This document shows positions 2,247 through 39,222 of a stretch of 39,992 nucleotides of DNA, piece after piece; position 1 is the stretch's first letter, and the number at the start of each line of letters is the position of its first letter. The notes beneath the pieces are model-generated. The model worked only from the letters and a program-made list of their open reading frames with translations, ran no database searches and was not told the origin of the DNA. The DNA lies in the IMG/VR virus record IMGVR_UViG_3300033997_000192, positions 1 to 39,992 of that record; one strand, 5' to 3'. A program made the translations under genes and the position numbers. Source of the stretch: a virus.

Positions 2247-3230
2247 ATGAGTGATTCAAGAGAAATTGCGATTGCTCCGGTAACATTTGGAGAGCTTCGA
2301 GAGATGGCAGAAACAATGGCTGCGTCTGGTATGTTCGGCAAAAACCCCGCGCAGATGATGAGTCTGATGCTCATTGCGCAAGCAGAAAACCTCCATCCCG
2401 CTCTCGCGGCTATGGAATACGACGTAATACAGGGACGCCCCGCTCTCAAGGGACAGGCTGCTCTTGCCAGGTTCCAGCAGTCGGGCGGATCTGTCGAGTG
2501 GAAAGTAAAGTCTGACGCCGAGGCGCGCGCCGTGTTTTCTCACCCACGCGGCGGATCACTCGAGGTTTCATGGACAATGGAGAGAGCCAAAAAAATGGGT
2601 CTCGACCAGAAAGACAACTGGAGAAAGCAGCCGGGTGTCATGCTCTCGTGGAGATGCGTTGCCGAGGGAGTCCGCGCCGTTTATCCCGCATGCCTGAACC
2701 GAATGTACCTCTCGGAAGAGGCGCAGGACTTCGAGCCTATGAGGAACGTAACGCCGGAGAGCAAGCCGGCACCTCGTAGCATCGAAACGTCGACATCCGC
2801 CGAATCCAAAAAGGACAATTCGTCCGTAGACACTTCAAAGAAATTGGCACCCTGCGCCGCTCAGATCAAGGCTGCCGAGAACGCCAAAAATCTCGCGGCT
2901 GCTGGCAAGCCCGATATCGACAAGGAAACGAAATCGCGTCTTTGGTCGGAATCTGGCAAAAAGGACGCCGTATACTGGAAACTGGTCTGCATCGAGCAGG
3001 AAAACCTCCTTGCGTCTCCTATCCAGAATGAACAGGAACCCGACAACACCGGCGATCTGTTCGGCGACCCCGTGCAGGAGATCATCGTCGAGCTTGAGGG
3101 CTGGATTGAATCAGACTCTGCGCCTCCGGCCATGCGTGAGGAGATCAGGTCTACCATCGAGAGCGGAGAAAATGACGTCCGCAAGCTGCGCGCGCTGCTT
3201 GATAAAGTAATCGCCGCGGCTGGACAGTAA
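2247..3230 (+). CDS. RecT-like single-strand annealing protein
   Basis: 327 residues. Residues 1-150 match the phage RecT/Bet pattern: REMAETMAASGMFGKNPAQMM, then AENLHPALAAMEYDVIQGRPALKGQAALARF, with the GxPAL core. Such proteins anneal complementary single strands during recombination and replication. The C-terminal half is low-complexity and acidic (poly-E/S, LEGWIESDSAPPAMREEI), possibly a partner-binding tail. The nuclease partner is probably the DUF1064 protein upstream. The stop lies just before an inverted repeat and the left junction of integron cassette array 1, so array genes are probably cotranscribed with it. Confidence 0.8.
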   Translation: MSDSREIAIAPVTFGELREMAETMAASGMFGKNPAQMMSLMLIAQAENLHPALAAMEYDVIQGRPALKGQAALARFQQSGGSVEWKVKSDAEARAVFSHPRGGSLEVSWTMERAKKMGLDQKDNWRKQPGVMLSWRCVAEGVRAVYPACLNRMYLSEEAQDFEPMRNVTPESKPAPRSIETSTSAESKKDNSSVDTSKKLAPCAAQIKAAENAKNLAAAGKPDIDKETKSRLWSESGKKDAVYWKLVCIEQENLLASPIQNEQEPDNTGDLFGDPVQEIIVELEGWIESDSAPPAMREEIRSTIESGENDVRKLRALLDKVIAAAGQ

Positions 3231-3239
3231 TCGTTCATG

Positions 3240-3281
3240 GGCTGAACATCTTATACTGTTCAGCCTAATATATGTTAGATG
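3240..3281 (+). other. Left junction of cassette array 1 (attI-like or secondary integration site)
   Basis: GGCTGAACA (3240-3248) and TGTTCAGCC (3256-3264) form a perfect 9-bp inverted repeat. It is followed by CTAATATATG|TTAGAT (about 3263-3281), where the bar marks the expected integron crossover. The same CTAATATATGTTAG block, also preceded by GGCTGAACAG, occurs at 37806-37833 at the start of array 2, after an unrelated gene. No R''/L'' half is recognisable, so this is not a full attC. It may be an attI-like site, a truncated attC, or a favoured phage site. Confidence 0.6.
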
Positions 3282-3289
3282 GATTCTTT

Positions 3290-3318
3290 AGCAGGATACC
3301 GGCTTACGGCCACTATCC
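3290..3318 (+). other. Leader hairpin of cassette 1
   Basis: AGGATA and TATCCT pair around a CCGG/GGCC-rich inner stem in the untranslated leader between the recombination point and the start codon of cassette 1. All five cassettes have an inverted repeat at this place. Confidence 0.45.
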
Positions 3319-3344
3319 TGACACGAACTAAACCGGAGGCAATC

Positions 3345-3518
3345 ATGACTGTATGGGTTGTAGAGTTTGACCGCGAAGACGACTATCACGAGGTTGTCGG
3401 GGTTTATGCAAACGAAGACCTTGCGACAACAGCGCGGCTTGAACGCGCGGCAGAAGAGGACGAAGACGCGGACGAGTTTTCCGTGAGCATTGAAGAGTTT
3501 GAAGTTGTCGGCATCTAA
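3345..3518 (+). CDS. Cassette 1 acidic small protein
   Basis: 57 residues from an ATG behind CCGGAGG. It starts TVWVVEFDREDDYHEVVGVYANEDLA and is very acidic toward the end (EEDEDADEF). It resembles small phage proteins that begin with a VWVVE-like strand and a 'GVFA' turn, of unknown function. The stop codon TAA lies inside the R'' box of the attC at 3513, the normal arrangement for an integron gene cassette (one ORF plus one attC). An extension to 3279 would read through the leader hairpin and is rejected. Confidence 0.75.
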   Translation: MTVWVVEFDREDDYHEVVGVYANEDLATTARLERAAEEDEDADEFSVSIEEFEVVGI

Positions 3519-3576
3519 CAACTGCTTCAACCTGACTCAACGCAGTAGCGTTTCGCAGGTTAAGCAAATGTTAGGC
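3513..3576 (+). other. attC: attC site 1 (integron recombination site)
   Basis: R'' ATCTAAC (3513-3519) and R' GTTAGGC (3570-3576) flank L'' GCTTCAACCTG and L' CAGGTTAAGC. L'' and L' are complementary except for one extra C in L'', which leaves a single extrahelical G on the folded bottom strand, as required for IntI recognition. The terminal structure is AACGC-AGTA-GCGTT. 64 bp is a typical short attC. Confidence 0.93.
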
Positions 3577-3583
3577 TGACAAC

Positions 3584-3612
3584 TACGGCATAACCGCAAG
3601 CGGTTATACCGA
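3584..3612 (+). other. Leader hairpin of cassette 2
   Basis: GGCATAACCGC/GCGGTTATACC is an inverted repeat in the leader. The leader from the crossover to the ribosome site (GACAACTACGGCATAACCGC and ACACGTTGCAAAAGG) is nearly identical to that of cassette 4 at 37834-37885, although the proteins differ. Confidence 0.55.
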
Positions 3613-3634
3613 CACGTTGCAAAAGGAGAAGGAA

Positions 3635-3829
3635 ATGATAGGAACGCTTGATATTGAGATTTACGAAAAGGCCGGTGCTGATGGCTGGGTAAAAAGTTGG
3701 GCACAAGCAAAATATCTTGCCCATGGCTTTGAGGATGTTTTGTGGACAGATGATATTGACGAGGCTTTTGCTTTCTTAAAGCAAAGCATAATAGACAAAG
3801 AAAGAAGCCTAACAATCGCTTCGACCTGA
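3635..3829 (+). CDS. Cassette 2 small protein with attC-encoded tail
   Basis: 64 residues from ATG behind AAAGGAG; an upstream in-frame TTG at 3617 is rejected. It reads MIGTLDIEIYEKAGADGWV, then AQAKYLAHGFEDVLWTDDIDEAFAFLKQ, a compact alpha/beta small protein of no family I recognise. Translation continues through R'' of the attC at 3807, so the last residues (SLTIAST) come from the recombination site. A cassette-5 protein ends in the near-identical LTTAST for the same reason. Confidence 0.7.
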   Translation: MIGTLDIEIYEKAGADGWVKSWAQAKYLAHGFEDVLWTDDIDEAFAFLKQSIIDKERSLTIAST

Positions 3830-3866
3830 CAAAATAGTAATTTTGCAGGTCAAGCGTATGTTAGGA
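3807..3866 (+). other. attC: attC site 2
   Basis: R'' GCCTAAC (3807-3813), R' GTTAGGA (3860-3866), L'' CGCTTCGACCTG, L' CAGGTCAAGCG. Relative to site 1 the L arms changed AACCTG/CAGGTT to GACCTG/CAGGTC, a compensatory change that keeps the stem, while the unpaired C stays. Terminal hairpin CAAAAT-AGTA-ATTTTG differs completely in sequence but not in shape. Confidence 0.93.
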
Positions 3867-3927
3867 CGACGGACAGCCGCATATCGGCTACGCCAATACG
3901 CGGACAATCCGCGAAAGGAGAAAGAGG

Positions 3928-4176
3928 ATGACTTGTAAAGGATGCAAACACTGGATCGATGACACGCCTGATTATGACAAGATTATGCACCCCGAAGACT
4001 ATGACACTGGCGAAGAAATGAAAATGCCGTTTTCTGTCAAAAAGTGCAAACACCCAGGAATTACGCTTTTCGAGCGCAATCCCGATCCGAAAGGCGTTTC
4101 TCTTTGTGATGGCTCGGACTACAGGGCAACTATGTATACCGGCCCTGACTATGGATGTGTAAACGGAGAATCCTAA
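3928..4176 (+). CDS. Cassette 3 cysteine-rich small protein
   Basis: 82 residues from ATG behind AAAGGAGAAAGAGG. CKGCKHW at residues 3-9 and KKCKHPG near residue 50, plus two later Cys (SLCDG, YGCVN), suggest a small zinc-binding fold; similar 'CKGCKHW' proteins occur in phages and prophages without known function. The leader has GCGGACAATCCGC and CCGCATATCGGC inverted repeats. The stop is the TAA inside R'' of the attC at 4171. Confidence 0.75.
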   Translation: MTCKGCKHWIDDTPDYDKIMHPEDYDTGEEMKMPFSVKKCKHPGITLFERNPDPKGVSLCDGSDYRATMYTGPDYGCVNGES

Positions 4177-4229
4177 CACATGGATCAACTTGGCAACGCT
4201 TCGCGTTGCAAGTTATCCAAATGTTGTCC
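4171..4229 (+). other. attC: attC site 3, last of array 1
   Basis: R'' TCCTAAC (4171-4177), L'' TGGATCAACTTG, L' CAAGTTATCCA and terminal hairpin GCAACGC-TTC-GCGTTGC. The L arms again pair perfectly once a single C is left out. R' is GTTGTCC (4223-4229), off consensus after GTT. This is expected for the last site of an array, where bases right of the crossover G belong to the insertion target. Confidence 0.88.
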
Positions 4230-36960: not shown

Positions 36961-37425
36961 TCAAAAGGGAATATCGTCGGGAAAATCAGGCGGTTCGTCG
37001 CTGTTCTGCGCAACCTGCCGATTCGACGTAGGCGCACGAGAATGCCCCGCGCCTGCGTTCGGCGCACTGTTTTGGTGTAACTGCTCGCCAGATGCGTTTC
37101 CGCCTCCCAAAAGCTGGACATTCGAGGCGTTGATTTCAACTTTCGACCTCGTCTGTCCGTCCTGCTCCCATCGGTTCTGATGGAGTTCGCCATCGACCGC
37201 GACCTGTTTCCCTTTCACCAGGTACTGATTAAGCGCTTCGGCGGATTTACCCCAAAGAACTATGTCCAGAAAGGAAACTTCCTCGACCCATTCCTCGTTT
37301 TTCTTGATCCGTTTGCCGACTGCAAGAGAAAACTTACACACCGGCGTTCCGCTTGAAATATATTTCAATTCCGCGTCACGAACCAACCGTCCAATGCCAA
37401 CCCATTTGTTCAAATCACTTGCCAT
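36961..37425 (-). CDS. ssb: Single-stranded DNA-binding protein
   Basis: 154 residues. N-terminal OB fold: DLNKWVGIGRLVRDAELKYISSGTPVCKFSLAVGKRIKKNEEWVEEVSFLDIVLWGKSAEALNQYLVKGKQVAVDGEL. Unstructured linker, then the acidic tip DEPPDFPDDIPF that binds partner enzymes. Covers single strands in replication and helps the RecT-like annealing protein. GGAGGCTACGGA ribosome site. Confidence 0.95.
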   Translation of the reverse strand: MASDLNKWVGIGRLVRDAELKYISSGTPVCKFSLAVGKRIKKNEEWVEEVSFLDIVLWGKSAEALNQYLVKGKQVAVDGELHQNRWEQDGQTRSKVEINASNVQLLGGGNASGEQLHQNSAPNAGAGHSRAPTSNRQVAQNSDEPPDFPDDIPF

Positions 37426-37508: not shown

Positions 37509-37537
37509 TTGACGGTGTGAGTTTGTTGTAATACAAT
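37509..37537 (+). promoter_or_regulatory. Promoter ahead of array 2, probably leaderless
   Basis: TTGACG (37509-37514), 17-nt spacer, TACAAT (37532-37537), 7 nt to ATG 37545. TTGTAATACAA at 37526-37536 is a further dyad, and TTGCAAT at 37495-37501 lies upstream. Divergent from the SSB promoter. Confidence 0.6.
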
Positions 37538-37544
37538 CGGAGAT

Positions 37545-37799
37545 ATGGAAGAACTGAAAAAAGCCATCAGGGAAATATCTGGCGTTGGATGCGTCGGGAA
37601 GTGCGAAAAAGAGGAGATTGGGTGCTCCGTAGGTTGCTCAATATACGGTGATTGTCTGGTAATTACCGACTTCTTTGCACGTCTGGATGAAGCCGAGTTG
37701 GATGCCGACAAGGTGCTTTCGGGGCTTGGCGAGATTGACGACGAAGACGGGCGGCGTTCGCTTATAGCATCTTACGGTATTATTTGCGGGATTAAGTAA
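37545..37799 (+). CDS. Small Cys-containing protein heading array 2
   Basis: 84 residues. EELKKAIREISGVGCVGKCEKEEIGCSVGCSIYGDCLVITDFFARLDEAELDADKVLSGLGEI, with five Cys in the first half. Not a cassette itself by its left side (no leader hairpin or crossover site upstream), but its 3' side runs into the left junction of array 2, as RecT's does for array 1. Function unknown. Confidence 0.72.
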   Translation: MEELKKAIREISGVGCVGKCEKEEIGCSVGCSIYGDCLVITDFFARLDEAELDADKVLSGLGEIDDEDGRRSLIASYGIICGIK

Positions 37800-37802
37800 G
37801 CA

Positions 37803-37834
37803 GATTAGGCTGAACAGTCTAATATATGTTAGGC
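37803..37834 (+). other. Left junction of cassette array 2
   Basis: ATTAGGCTG AA CAGTCTAAT inverted repeat followed by ATATG|TTAGGC. Shares GGCTGAACAG and CTAATATATGTTAG with the left junction of array 1 at 3240-3281, although the genes on the left differ. This identifies a common insertion target. Confidence 0.6.
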
Positions 37835-37890
37835 TGACAACTACGGCATAACCGCTTTGCGCTTATACCGACACGTTGCAAAAGGAAAAA

Positions 37891-38130
37891 ATGATGGATG
37901 CCGAAAAACTGAAAAAAGCATTACAATCTGGTCTGGCCCTTGGTGCGCGGCTGTCTGTCGAGGGAATTAAATGCGATGACCAATTAAAAATGATTGCAGA
38001 TACCCTCGCAGAATTAGACCGTGATAAGCCCGTTTGTTACAAATGTAAATATGACGACTCGGAATTGTGCTATGAATGCAAACGAGCATACAGAACGATT
38101 GATAACTTTGAGAAAGTAGAAGAAGCCTAA
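37891..38130 (+). CDS. Cassette 4 small CxxC protein
   Basis: 79 residues; ATG 37891 or 37894 behind AAAAGGA. DAEKLKKALQSGLALGARLSVEGIKCDDQLKMIADTLAELDRDKPVCYKCKYDDSELCYECKRAY. Two CxxC pairs give a zinc ribbon. The leader is nearly the same as that of cassette 2. TAA stop lies in R'' of the attC at 38125. Confidence 0.76.
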   Translation: MMDAEKLKKALQSGLALGARLSVEGIKCDDQLKMIADTLAELDRDKPVCYKCKYDDSELCYECKRAYRTIDNFEKVEEA

Positions 38131-38188
38131 CAACTGCTTCAACCTGACTCCGATCAGTAGATCGGTGCAGGTTAAGCAAATGTTAGGT
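38125..38188 (+). other. attC: attC site 4
   Basis: R'' GCCTAAC (38125-38131), R' GTTAGGT (38182-38188). L'' GCTTCAACCTG and L' CAGGTTAAGC identical to site 1, unpaired C kept. Terminal hairpin CCGAT-CAGTAG-ATCGG differs in stem sequence from site 1 but not in form. Confidence 0.93.
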
Positions 38189-38198
38189 TGACGCTCAA

Positions 38199-38226
38199 CC
38201 ATATAGCGCCAGTAGTCGCTATATGG
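38199..38226 (+). other. Leader hairpin of cassette 5
   Basis: CCATATAGCG and CGCTATATGG form a perfect 10-bp stem with an 8-nt loop, immediately inside the cassette. The stretch 38227-38283 that follows is A/T-rich with two A-runs and a T-run and holds no gene. Confidence 0.55.
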
Positions 38227-38283
38227 ATTGACCGCAAAAAAGATCGAAAAAAGTGCATTTTCTACTTTTTTTACAGATTTTAG

Positions 38284-38312
38284 TTGACATAATATCTTGA
38301 TTGTTGTATAGT
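38284..38312 (+). promoter_or_regulatory. Internal promoter of cassette 5
   Basis: TTGACA (38284-38289), 17-nt spacer, TATAGT (38307-38312). Near-consensus, and the strongest promoter-like match in any cassette. CTTGAT and ATCAAG flank the -10 as a possible operator. Cassettes with their own promoter are often toxin-antitoxin or defence cassettes. Confidence 0.82.
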
Positions 38313-38384
38313 TATATCAAGGTTGATAGTTAAGGCAACCAACTCAGAGCGACCTGCGGGCTGGTCAGTAAACCCGATAGAAAG

Positions 38385-38573
38385 ATGAGCAAAATCCAGT
38401 TTGACACGATCAACGGCGTACAGAAGGTTCAGGAGTTCGATTCCGAGATCGAAATGGTTTCCCAGGACACTGTTTTTGATTACCTGCACAACGCCGAAGA
38501 TGGCACGGTTTACGGATGCGAAGTTGATGCGGAAACCTTCGCTAAGATCGAAGAAGAGTACGGGGTAAAGTAA
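38385..38573 (+). CDS. Cassette 5 first gene, small acidic protein
   Basis: 62 residues: MSKIQFDTINGVQKVQEFDSE, then IEMVSQDTVFDYLHNAEDGTVYGCEVDAETFAKIEEEYGV. Acidic, with an ED-rich end; could be an antitoxin-type or binding protein. Ribosome site (GATAGAAAG) is weak. It is only 2 nt before the next gene. Confidence 0.68.
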   Translation: MSKIQFDTINGVQKVQEFDSEIEMVSQDTVFDYLHNAEDGTVYGCEVDAETFAKIEEEYGVK

Positions 38574-38575
38574 AG

Positions 38576-38758
38576 ATGCAACACGGCGGCAAGCGCGATG
38601 GGGCGGGCCGCCGCCCCATTTTTGAGAAAACGAAGCTAACCCAGATACGGGTAAATCAGGAAATCTGGGACGCGATCCCGGCTCCAAAAGCGGAATGGGT
38701 TAGGGAAGCGATAGAAGAAAAGGCGAAAAAAGAGAACCTAACAACTGCTTCAACCTGA
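38576..38758 (+). CDS. Cassette 5 second gene, RHH-like basic protein
   Basis: 60 residues. QHGGKRDGAGRRPIFEKTKLTQIRVNQEIWDAIPAPKAEWVREAIEEKAKKE matches phage and plasmid proteins with a Gly-rich GxRxGAGRRP start and a strand-helix-helix (RHH) end, a DNA-binding family. The C-terminal LTTAST is encoded by R''/L'' of the attC at 38736. With 38385 it forms a compact two-gene cassette, candidate toxin-antitoxin or repressor pair. Confidence 0.75.
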   Translation: MQHGGKRDGAGRRPIFEKTKLTQIRVNQEIWDAIPAPKAEWVREAIEEKAKKENLTTAST

Positions 38759-38793
38759 CATCCTAACGGATGCAGGTTAAGCAAATGTTATCT
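38736..38793 (+). other. attC: attC site 5, last of array 2
   Basis: R'' ACCTAAC (38736-38742), L'' and L' identical to sites 1 and 4, terminal hairpin ATCC-TAAC-GGAT. R' is GTTATCT (38787-38793), off consensus beyond GTT, as expected for the array end. Its TTA (38788-38790) is also the stop codon of the minus-strand gene beyond. Confidence 0.9.
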
Positions 38794-39222
38794 CGACAAT
38801 ACCAATCCGACTATCAACCCTGCTCCAAAAGATGACGCCCCGATTATGATTTCATTTTTCAGGGTGTCGCTTTTGTAATTCTTCCAGTATTTCTCGCTCT
38901 CGCTGAGTATCTGTCTTCTCAAGTCCAATAGCCCATTTCTCTCCGTCAATGATTTCTCTCTCGCGGTCAAGTCTGTCTCTCTCGTCAGAATTGAGGTCTC
39001 CCTCTGTTCGATTGACTTCTCTCGCCTTTCCAAGCTCGCCATCAATTCCGCTATTATTTCCGCGTCCGTCATCTCTGATGGATTTTCCGGAACATATTGC
39101 AGCGACGGCTCCGATGACTCCGCCGCCGATGCTGGCGAACTTCCATCCAGCGAAAACGCCGACAAGGAGAATGACAAAAGCAAGAGCGATAAAAATACAA
39201 ACCTTTGTACGCGTGCGCACAC
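38788..39222 (-). CDS. Coiled-coil membrane protein of the lysis block (spanin-like)
   Basis: 144 residues, GTG start behind AAAGGAATAATC. A signal-type N-terminus (FVFLSLLLLSFSLSAF), Ser/Pro linker, then a long coiled coil (LERREKSIEQRETSILTRET), and a C-terminal membrane span GASSFGAGLIVGLVLSR. The signal-coil-span order resembles a one-gene spanin, but there is no lipobox Cys, so this is inference. Lies last in the operon after holin and DUF261 genes; its stop touches attC site 5. Confidence 0.72.
   Translation of the reverse strand: MCARVQRFVFLSLLLLSFSLSAFSLDGSSPASAAESSEPSLQYVPENPSEMTDAEIIAELMASLERREKSIEQRETSILTRETDLTAREKSLTERNGLLDLRRQILSESEKYWKNYKSDTLKNEIIIGASSFGAGLIVGLVLSR
38852..39220 (-). 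CDS. Alternative open frame, N-terminal membrane and coiled coil
   Basis: 122 codons in another frame, starting with GTG only 2 nt after the other start. VCIFIALAFVILLVGVFAGWKFASIGGGVIGAVAAI, then charged helices ending EREILEELQKRHPEK. It looks like an Rz-type inner-membrane spanin. Both frames are long and domain-like; the coiled coil of one generates charged residues in the other, so this may be a shadow. Listed because nested spanin genes are known in phages. Confidence 0.35.
   Translation of the reverse strand: MRTRTKVCIFIALAFVILLVGVFAGWKFASIGGGVIGAVAAICSGKSIRDDGRGNNSGIDGELGKAREVNRTEGDLNSDERDRLDREREIIDGEKWAIGLEKTDTQREREILEELQKRHPEK

Follow-up and report, generated by a model that had tools for sequence, protein, structure and literature searches.

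Integrase-less integron cassette arrays in a circular phage genome, with attI-like left boundaries and differing content in related phages

Introduction

The window analysed here, the whole 39,992-nucleotide stretch of virus record IMGVR_UViG_3300033997_000192, carries two separate arrays of integron cassettes, and raises the question of how such cassettes come to lie in a phage genome and whether they are exchanged there. The initial annotation had attributed the uniformity of their attC sites to one host's sedentary chromosomal integron, and had also taken the presence of two arrays in one phage to imply repeated capture. Clusters of attC lacking integron-integrases (CALIN) have been described in virulent phages, with MTase cargo (Qi et al. 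2023, PMC9892861); the same paper reports that IntI1 recombined 5 of 6 phage attC in an assay, and an attI-led CALIN in a Shewanella prophage (M16-3). Its main text treats phage attC clusters phage by phage, relatives not being compared, and holds neither the word "spirochaet" nor the words "related phages". This was the only direct report on phage integron arrays among the titles and abstract openings searched (subscription papers and preprints lying outside that scope), and within the same scope the other literature yielded neither attI-led arrays with turnover in lytic phages nor a cassette leader.

Results

Two cassette arrays in a circular phage genome

The window is a circular phage genome with a terminal repeat of 127 bp, and encodes a contractile tail (tail sheath), baseplate, portal, terminase, head protein and DNA methyltransferase. 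Among 50,697 records of isolated phages, none matched positions 37800-38240 at the DNA level, and terminase identity was at most 34% among the matches listed. The two arrays and their neighbours are laid out as follows.

639-714 and 841-914: tRNA-Met and tRNA-Thr genes, between array 1 and array 2
2247-3230, + strand: gene for a RecT-like single-strand annealing protein, immediately before array 1
3239-3280, + strand: attI-like left boundary of array 1, crossover after G3274
3275-3570, + strand: array 1 cassette 1, DUF7336-like ORF 3345-3518, attC 3514-3576
3571-3860, + strand: array 1 cassette 2, ORF 3635-3829, attC 3808-3866
3861-4223, + strand: array 1 cassette 3, ORF 3928-4176, attC 4172-4229
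36961-37425, - strand: single-strand DNA binding protein gene (ssb), divergent from array 2
37509-37537, + strand: predicted promoter TTGACG-17-TACAAT, upstream of gene 37545 and array 2
37545-37799, + strand: phage gene upstream of array 2, also in the relative G001 (57% at the amino-acid level)
37805-37834, + strand: attI-like left boundary of array 2, crossover after G37828
37829-38182, + strand: cassette 4, first of array 2, G|TT crossovers at both ends
38126-38188, + strand: attC 4
38183-38787, + strand: cassette 5, second of array 2, G|TT crossovers at both ends
38737-38793, + strand: attC 5, last site of array 2
38788-39222, - strand: convergent gene, whose TTA stop codon (38788-38790) adjoins the last crossover G

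Array 2 is a real two-cassette integron array (37829-38787), in which attC 4 and attC 5 are both canonical. The interval 37828-38793 that had been annotated for it proved accurate, with the left crossover G as its first base and the last base of attC 5 as its end, as did its distance from array 1 of about 4.3-4.5 kb, which is counted across the genome ends because the window is circular. Each of the five attC sites has both stems (R''/R' and L''/L'), a single unpaired base in L'' and a G|TT crossover, which reads G|TTAGG or G|TTATC at attC 4 and 5. A covariance model identified exactly these five sites on the + strand of the window, a result that is not independent evidence since the model was partly built from them, and its five weak matches on the - strand are mirror images of the + strand sites. 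As annotated, attC 1, 4 and 5 have the same left and right arms and differ in their terminal loops. The left arm is the 22-mer CTAACAACTGCTTCAACCTGAC, with three exact copies in the window (3515, 38127 and 38738, all on the + strand), two of which fall in array 2; the common right arm is GCAGGTTAAGCAAATGTTA.

We found no match to TIGR02249 (integron integrase) in the window (G000), which therefore lacks the intI of a complete integron, nor in any of the virus records of two sets (7/7 and 12/12, the window and 18 others); the same profile matched other tyrosine recombinases in 14/14 control genomes. With two attC in array 2, three in array 1 and no intI, the arrays belong to the CALIN class, and they lie in a circular 40-kb phage genome, not in a bacterial chromosome beside intI as a sedentary chromosomal integron does. 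Elsewhere, at loci L007, L019, L021 and L130, we observed half attC sites, consisting of the left arm only with a ribosome site and ATG directly after it, which look like attC cut in two.

An attI-like left boundary and a fixed right edge

At the left boundary of array 2 we identified a hairpin-bearing site (37805-37828), TTAGGCTG-AA-CAGTCTAA, followed by TATATG|TTAGGC; the left boundary of array 1 reads CTGTTCAGCCTAATATATG|TTAG. The array 2 type of site also opens arrays in G001, in G002 (two arrays), in G011 and at L117, stands before a leader in L116 where the contig ends, and is replaced by hairpin variants at the start of other arrays. Across 19 such sites, chosen by hand, 86.8% of cells pair and three of eight pairs change on both sides; these left edges have one common hairpin and a TG|TT crossover, unlike the non-conserved GTT targets of attG insertions. 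When the left 17 bases were compared with 2,496 GTT sites in 14 bacterial loci, the closest three were those of L112, L109 and L110 (two, three and four mismatches), all of which open cassette arrays in intI-bearing genomes. Two of these are no further than about 0.6 kb from the 3' end of intI, and that of L112 lies about 7 kb from the gene. The eight sites with six mismatches include two more just downstream of intI (L108 and L111), and some chance sites. A Shewanella attI quoted in PMC9892861 ends in CACTAATAAAATGTT, which resembles the phage site. By its sequence, position and conservation the left boundary resembles the attI found next to intI in spirochaetes, a likeness that rests on about 17 bases. 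The first cassette at L121:5500 begins without an attI-like site. On the right, array 2 ends at the convergent gene's stop codon, and this edge is alike in the window, G001 and G002.

Cassette content differs between related phages

Only one close relative of the window phage was found, G001 (IMGVR_UViG_3300020045_006566), which is circular and syntenic, with a terminase 94% identical and DNA roughly 70-88% identical across the larger aligned blocks. It also gave two tRNA matches near the place corresponding to the window tRNA genes. At the array-2 place, G001 contains a single unrelated cassette, with the same edges as the two-cassette array of the window, which encodes a Lar-like protein (PF14354, E 1.7e-4, under the Pfam cut-off). 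Its array-1 place is empty: nothing separates the recT-like gene from the hairpin after it. As this place also has no attI-like sequence, array 1 may have been gained or lost as one block, for example by homologous recombination. In the more distant relative G002, six cassettes lie beside the same convergent gene, with the same right edge. Relatives of the recT-like gene were found at two distant loci, both without attC. G002 has a second array (L078:10653-11080) at a distance of about 3 kb from its terminase gene; it holds one cassette, whose attC is truncated.

The comparison of array content that the initial annotation had proposed thus gave two cassettes in the window, one in G001 and six in G002, and its suggestion of repeated capture is borne out by G001, in which the same edges enclose a different cassette and the array-1 place is empty. 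Since the content of G001 differs, vertical divergence of the same genes at the same place does not describe these phages. These comparisons show that capture and turnover do recur.

A covarying leader at the start of the cassettes

Directly after the crossover, nearly every cassette of these arrays contains a leader of 55-65 nt, composed of TTRRRYGG, a bulged A, a short outer stem and an inner stem of 7-11 pairs, and followed by the ribosome site.

37829-37886, + strand: leader of cassette 4 (model R2, 48.6 bits)
38183-38242, + strand: leader of cassette 5 (model R2, 47.2 bits)

Model R2 and the covariation count were based on 34 chosen leaders, with those of the window in the training set; leaders scoring 10 or less were dropped, and one base pair was mis-set in model R1. 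Across that set of 34, pairing in the inner stem amounts to 95%, with changes on both sides in six of seven pairs, and the covariation score of the whole leader is 0.52 (0.16 in shuffles). Model R2 matches all five cassettes of the window and nothing else there, and in one scan 40 of 40 leader matches begin at a cassette start. The leader model matched six of seven virus records of one set and all eight of another; in G003, a virus record without a leader match, no attC was found either. The leader was missing from 27 of 28 bacterial contigs, the one exception being an IMG/VR phage contig, and among eight bacterial genomes the model's only match lay on the phage contig of G014. With stricter filters, none of 247 drawn Spirochaetota genomes contained the leader; the G014 match, obtained with laxer ones, serves as a positive control. 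Rfam searches of the window (gathering threshold) and of three loci (E up to 5) returned only tRNAs and one chance match, so that the leader was found in no curated family. The leader of array 1 cassette 2 is 89% identical to that of cassette 4 and the ORFs are unrelated; other leaders over 90% identical likewise stand before unrelated ORFs.

Our initial idea, that the leader is an mRNA element, was set back by its wobble pairs. Read on the top strand, 35 fitted leaders (of 37 representatives) contain 23 A.C and one G.T; seven of the A.C fall in a recurrent CC/CA loop motif, and the rest stand at 16 to 1, against 719 to 559 in shuffles. The wobble pairs of the leader thus fall on the bottom strand, which is also the strand that recombines in attC. 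In attC controls, which left out attC over 70 nt, the corresponding counts were 15 to 5 in the L stem, 29 to 25 in the R stem and 1 to 2 at the tip. The leader may thus fit a bottom-strand single-stranded DNA element beside attC better than an mRNA leader, an argument that is suggestive only, because the attC control is weaker (R stem near even, tip silent). In G009 (L090:13928-14100), the last attC is followed by a leader and then by a tRNA-like sequence, as judged by eye, with no ORF.

Cargo of array 2

The cassettes run in the same direction as the phage genes before them, and the predicted promoter at 37509-37537, for which G001 has similar hexamers (judged by eye), is the likely driver of array 2. 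Within the two cassettes we identified the following.

37891-38130, + strand: cassette 4 ORF, 79 aa, acidic, two CxxC pairs
38284-38312, + strand: predicted promoter of cassette 5, TTGACA-17-TATAGT, in a region conserved in L142
38385-38573, + strand: first ORF of cassette 5, 62 aa, pI 4.1
38576-38758, + strand: second ORF of cassette 5 (P0005), 60 aa, pI 9.6

The ORF of cassette 4 (P0003) had no relative in viral_contigs. Cassette 5 has a close copy in a 224-kb virus contig (L142:2525-3183), 89% identical over the attC end, leader and promoter and about 92-93% identical in the second ORF; in this copy a different acidic ORF of 90 aa replaces the 62-aa ORF, and the last attC is truncated. An inverted repeat, CTTGAT-14-ATCAAG, surrounds the second hexamer of the promoter-like site of cassette 5. 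A promoter with inverted repeats, an exchangeable small acidic ORF and a conserved small basic ORF are also found in acr-aca operons (PMC9410906), a likeness of layout that we regard as a lead. The basic 60-aa protein is possibly a small regulator, its predicted structure being of low confidence (pLDDT 64). A PADLOC search of seven proteins gave no match.

A cassette pool distinct from bacterial integrons

We investigated the distribution of the 22-mer left arm, and identified it in 22 stretches of viral contigs and in 27 stretches of bacterial genome_contigs, among whose record titles spirochaetes are the most frequent group; the attC arms of the phage thus match spirochaete-type chromosomal arrays. 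A full IntI was present in 8 of 12 tested bacterial genomes that hold the arm. The attC differ in length, as extracted with one regular expression from both sources: 42 of 43 from bacterial contigs exceed 70 nt (median 112; the exception is L062), and 34 of 36 from viral contigs are of 70 nt or less (median 57; the exceptions are L026 and L126). Treponema integrons are described as having spirochaete-type attC and an attI downstream of intI, read in the same direction (PMC3607928). The window shares this type of attC, and differs in the missing intI. The same source gives attC of 63-68 bp in T. denticola and T. vincentii, so that short attC are not unique to phages. In the bacterial contigs searched, most chromosomal attC that carry these arms exceed 100 nt and have no leader, and in both respects the phage arrays differ from the spirochaete-type chromosomal ones.

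The expected match to host integrons therefore holds for the arms, which are identical in bacterial integrons, and fails for attC length and for the cassette start. In contrast to the initial reading, arm uniformity does not point to one host's sedentary chromosomal integron: the phage attC are short and the leader is phage-only, and, because the same arms and leaders occur in phages barely or not detectably related to one another, the uniformity marks a shared phage pool. Several array-bearing virus records have little or nothing in common with the window except the arrays. Of 16 loci with relatives of the ssb gene, five carry arrays (L120, L121, L126, L128 and L130; L120 and L128 are records already in our set, L128 belonging to G011, and locus L012 was left out where L120 is the same record). 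Comparing 55 cassettes by coding region, we identified four pairs common to different records. The best, L015/L130, is 96% identical in the body and 98% in the leader, with unrelated surroundings and homology that begins at G|TT; the attC tips differ (74%). The other three pairs are looser. None of the window cassettes was found in bacterial chromosomes.

Discussion

We consider it probable, from sequence comparison, that the window carries an attI-led cassette platform without its own integrase, worked in trans by the integrase of the host, which is probably a spirochaete. A prophage of the window phage was sought in spirochaetes, and only remote terminase relatives emerged, in 6 of 296 Spirochaetota genomes and with identities no higher than 33%. 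In this reading, the attI-like hairpin site of array 2 keeps its place between an upstream phage gene and the stop codon that ends the convergent gene, and each cassette behind it has a structured leader at its start and a short attC at its end. During infection, single-stranded phage DNA would serve as substrate for the host integron integrase, working in trans, which would insert cassettes at the attI-like site and excise them via attC, leaving related phages with different cassettes inside the same edges. Expression would come by read-through from the upstream phage promoter or, for cassette 5, from the promoter inside it, and the benefit would presumably be mainly counter-defence.

The strongest competitor, to which we give a real but clearly smaller chance, is that homologous recombination, by the RecT-like protein or between co-infecting phages, swaps cassettes through their near-identical leaders and attC arms, with attC and attI as relics of an older capture. 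The positions of the recT-like gene directly upstream of array 1 and of ssb beside array 2, the near-identical leaders before unrelated ORFs, the alikeness of the attC arms, and the presence (window) or absence (G001) of array 1 as a block are all in keeping with it. So is the swapping of attC tips and of an inner ORF between copies of one cassette: the exchanged ORF in L142, the differing tips of L015/L130 and the truncated attC were not made by site-specific recombination alone. However, homologous recombination leaves unexplained why attI- and attC-like anatomy is kept at both edges, why the leader stems carry compensating changes and why the left edge is like chromosomal attI, features for which a platform worked by a host integrase remains our preferred reading.

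Chance capture by a host IntI at non-classical, attG-like GTT sites, with no dedicated attI, appears unlikely. Left edges do vary between phages, the first cassette of L121 has no attI-like site before it, and array 1 stands where G001 has none, but the 19 chosen left edges conform to one hairpin with TG|TT and compensating stem changes, and the right edge is common to the window, G001 and G002. Insertions at attG in bacterial genomes (Loot et al. 2024, as cited in PMC11389934) and the phage arrays both lie outside the classical integron; the left edges of the phage arrays are conserved and attI-like. An inert fragment of a chromosomal integron, picked up once and inherited vertically, is very improbable: the arms identical to those of spirochaete integrons and the absence of an integrase from the phage would suit it, but it is contradicted by the different cassettes that G001 and the window hold at one place, by short attC and a phage-only leader unlike chromosomal cassettes, and by the recurrence of the system in phages whose relation is slight or undetectable. 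Direct lifting from a host chromosomal integron is likewise not supported, because chromosomal attC are of about 112 nt and those of phages of about 57, and the leader is phage-only.

Tentatively, the host-driven platform may be extended further, with the leader as a second folded single-strand DNA element, on the bottom strand beside attC, and a separate phage-to-phage cassette pool that includes the 224-kb virus and uses host integrases as hired machinery, the whole forming a standing gene-exchange system of lytic phages. A bottom-strand leader, if real, would be a recombination element new to the integron literature, within the titles and abstract openings covered here.

The arrays share with the CALIN of PMC9892861 the attC cassettes and the absence of an integrase, and integrase-less phage attC arrays as such are known. 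Compared with those CALIN as that paper describes them, the window arrays add a conserved attI-like hairpin start, content that differs between fixed edges, a covarying leader and a tie to spirochaete-type attC. Phages thus seem to trade genes using recombination machinery encoded elsewhere, and phage cassette exchange becomes directly testable through a dedicated entry site, fixed edges, presence and absence in relatives and a cassette that occurs in two kinds of virus.

The cassettes, flanked by markers, also form a short list of accessory genes in phages, of which some are of anti-restriction type, and the leader together with attC is a possible handle for picking out new counter-defence genes. 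The cargo of related arrays includes a Lar-like protein (below the Pfam cut-off), Dam, Mom, N6_N4_Mtase and RtcB. The phage cassette at L092:743-1852 (- strand) encodes an RtcB-type RNA ligase (PF01139, E 7e-63), and that at L013:2758-3541, with a Mom-family DNA modification protein (PF25680, E 7.5e-69), adjoins a methyltransferase cassette.
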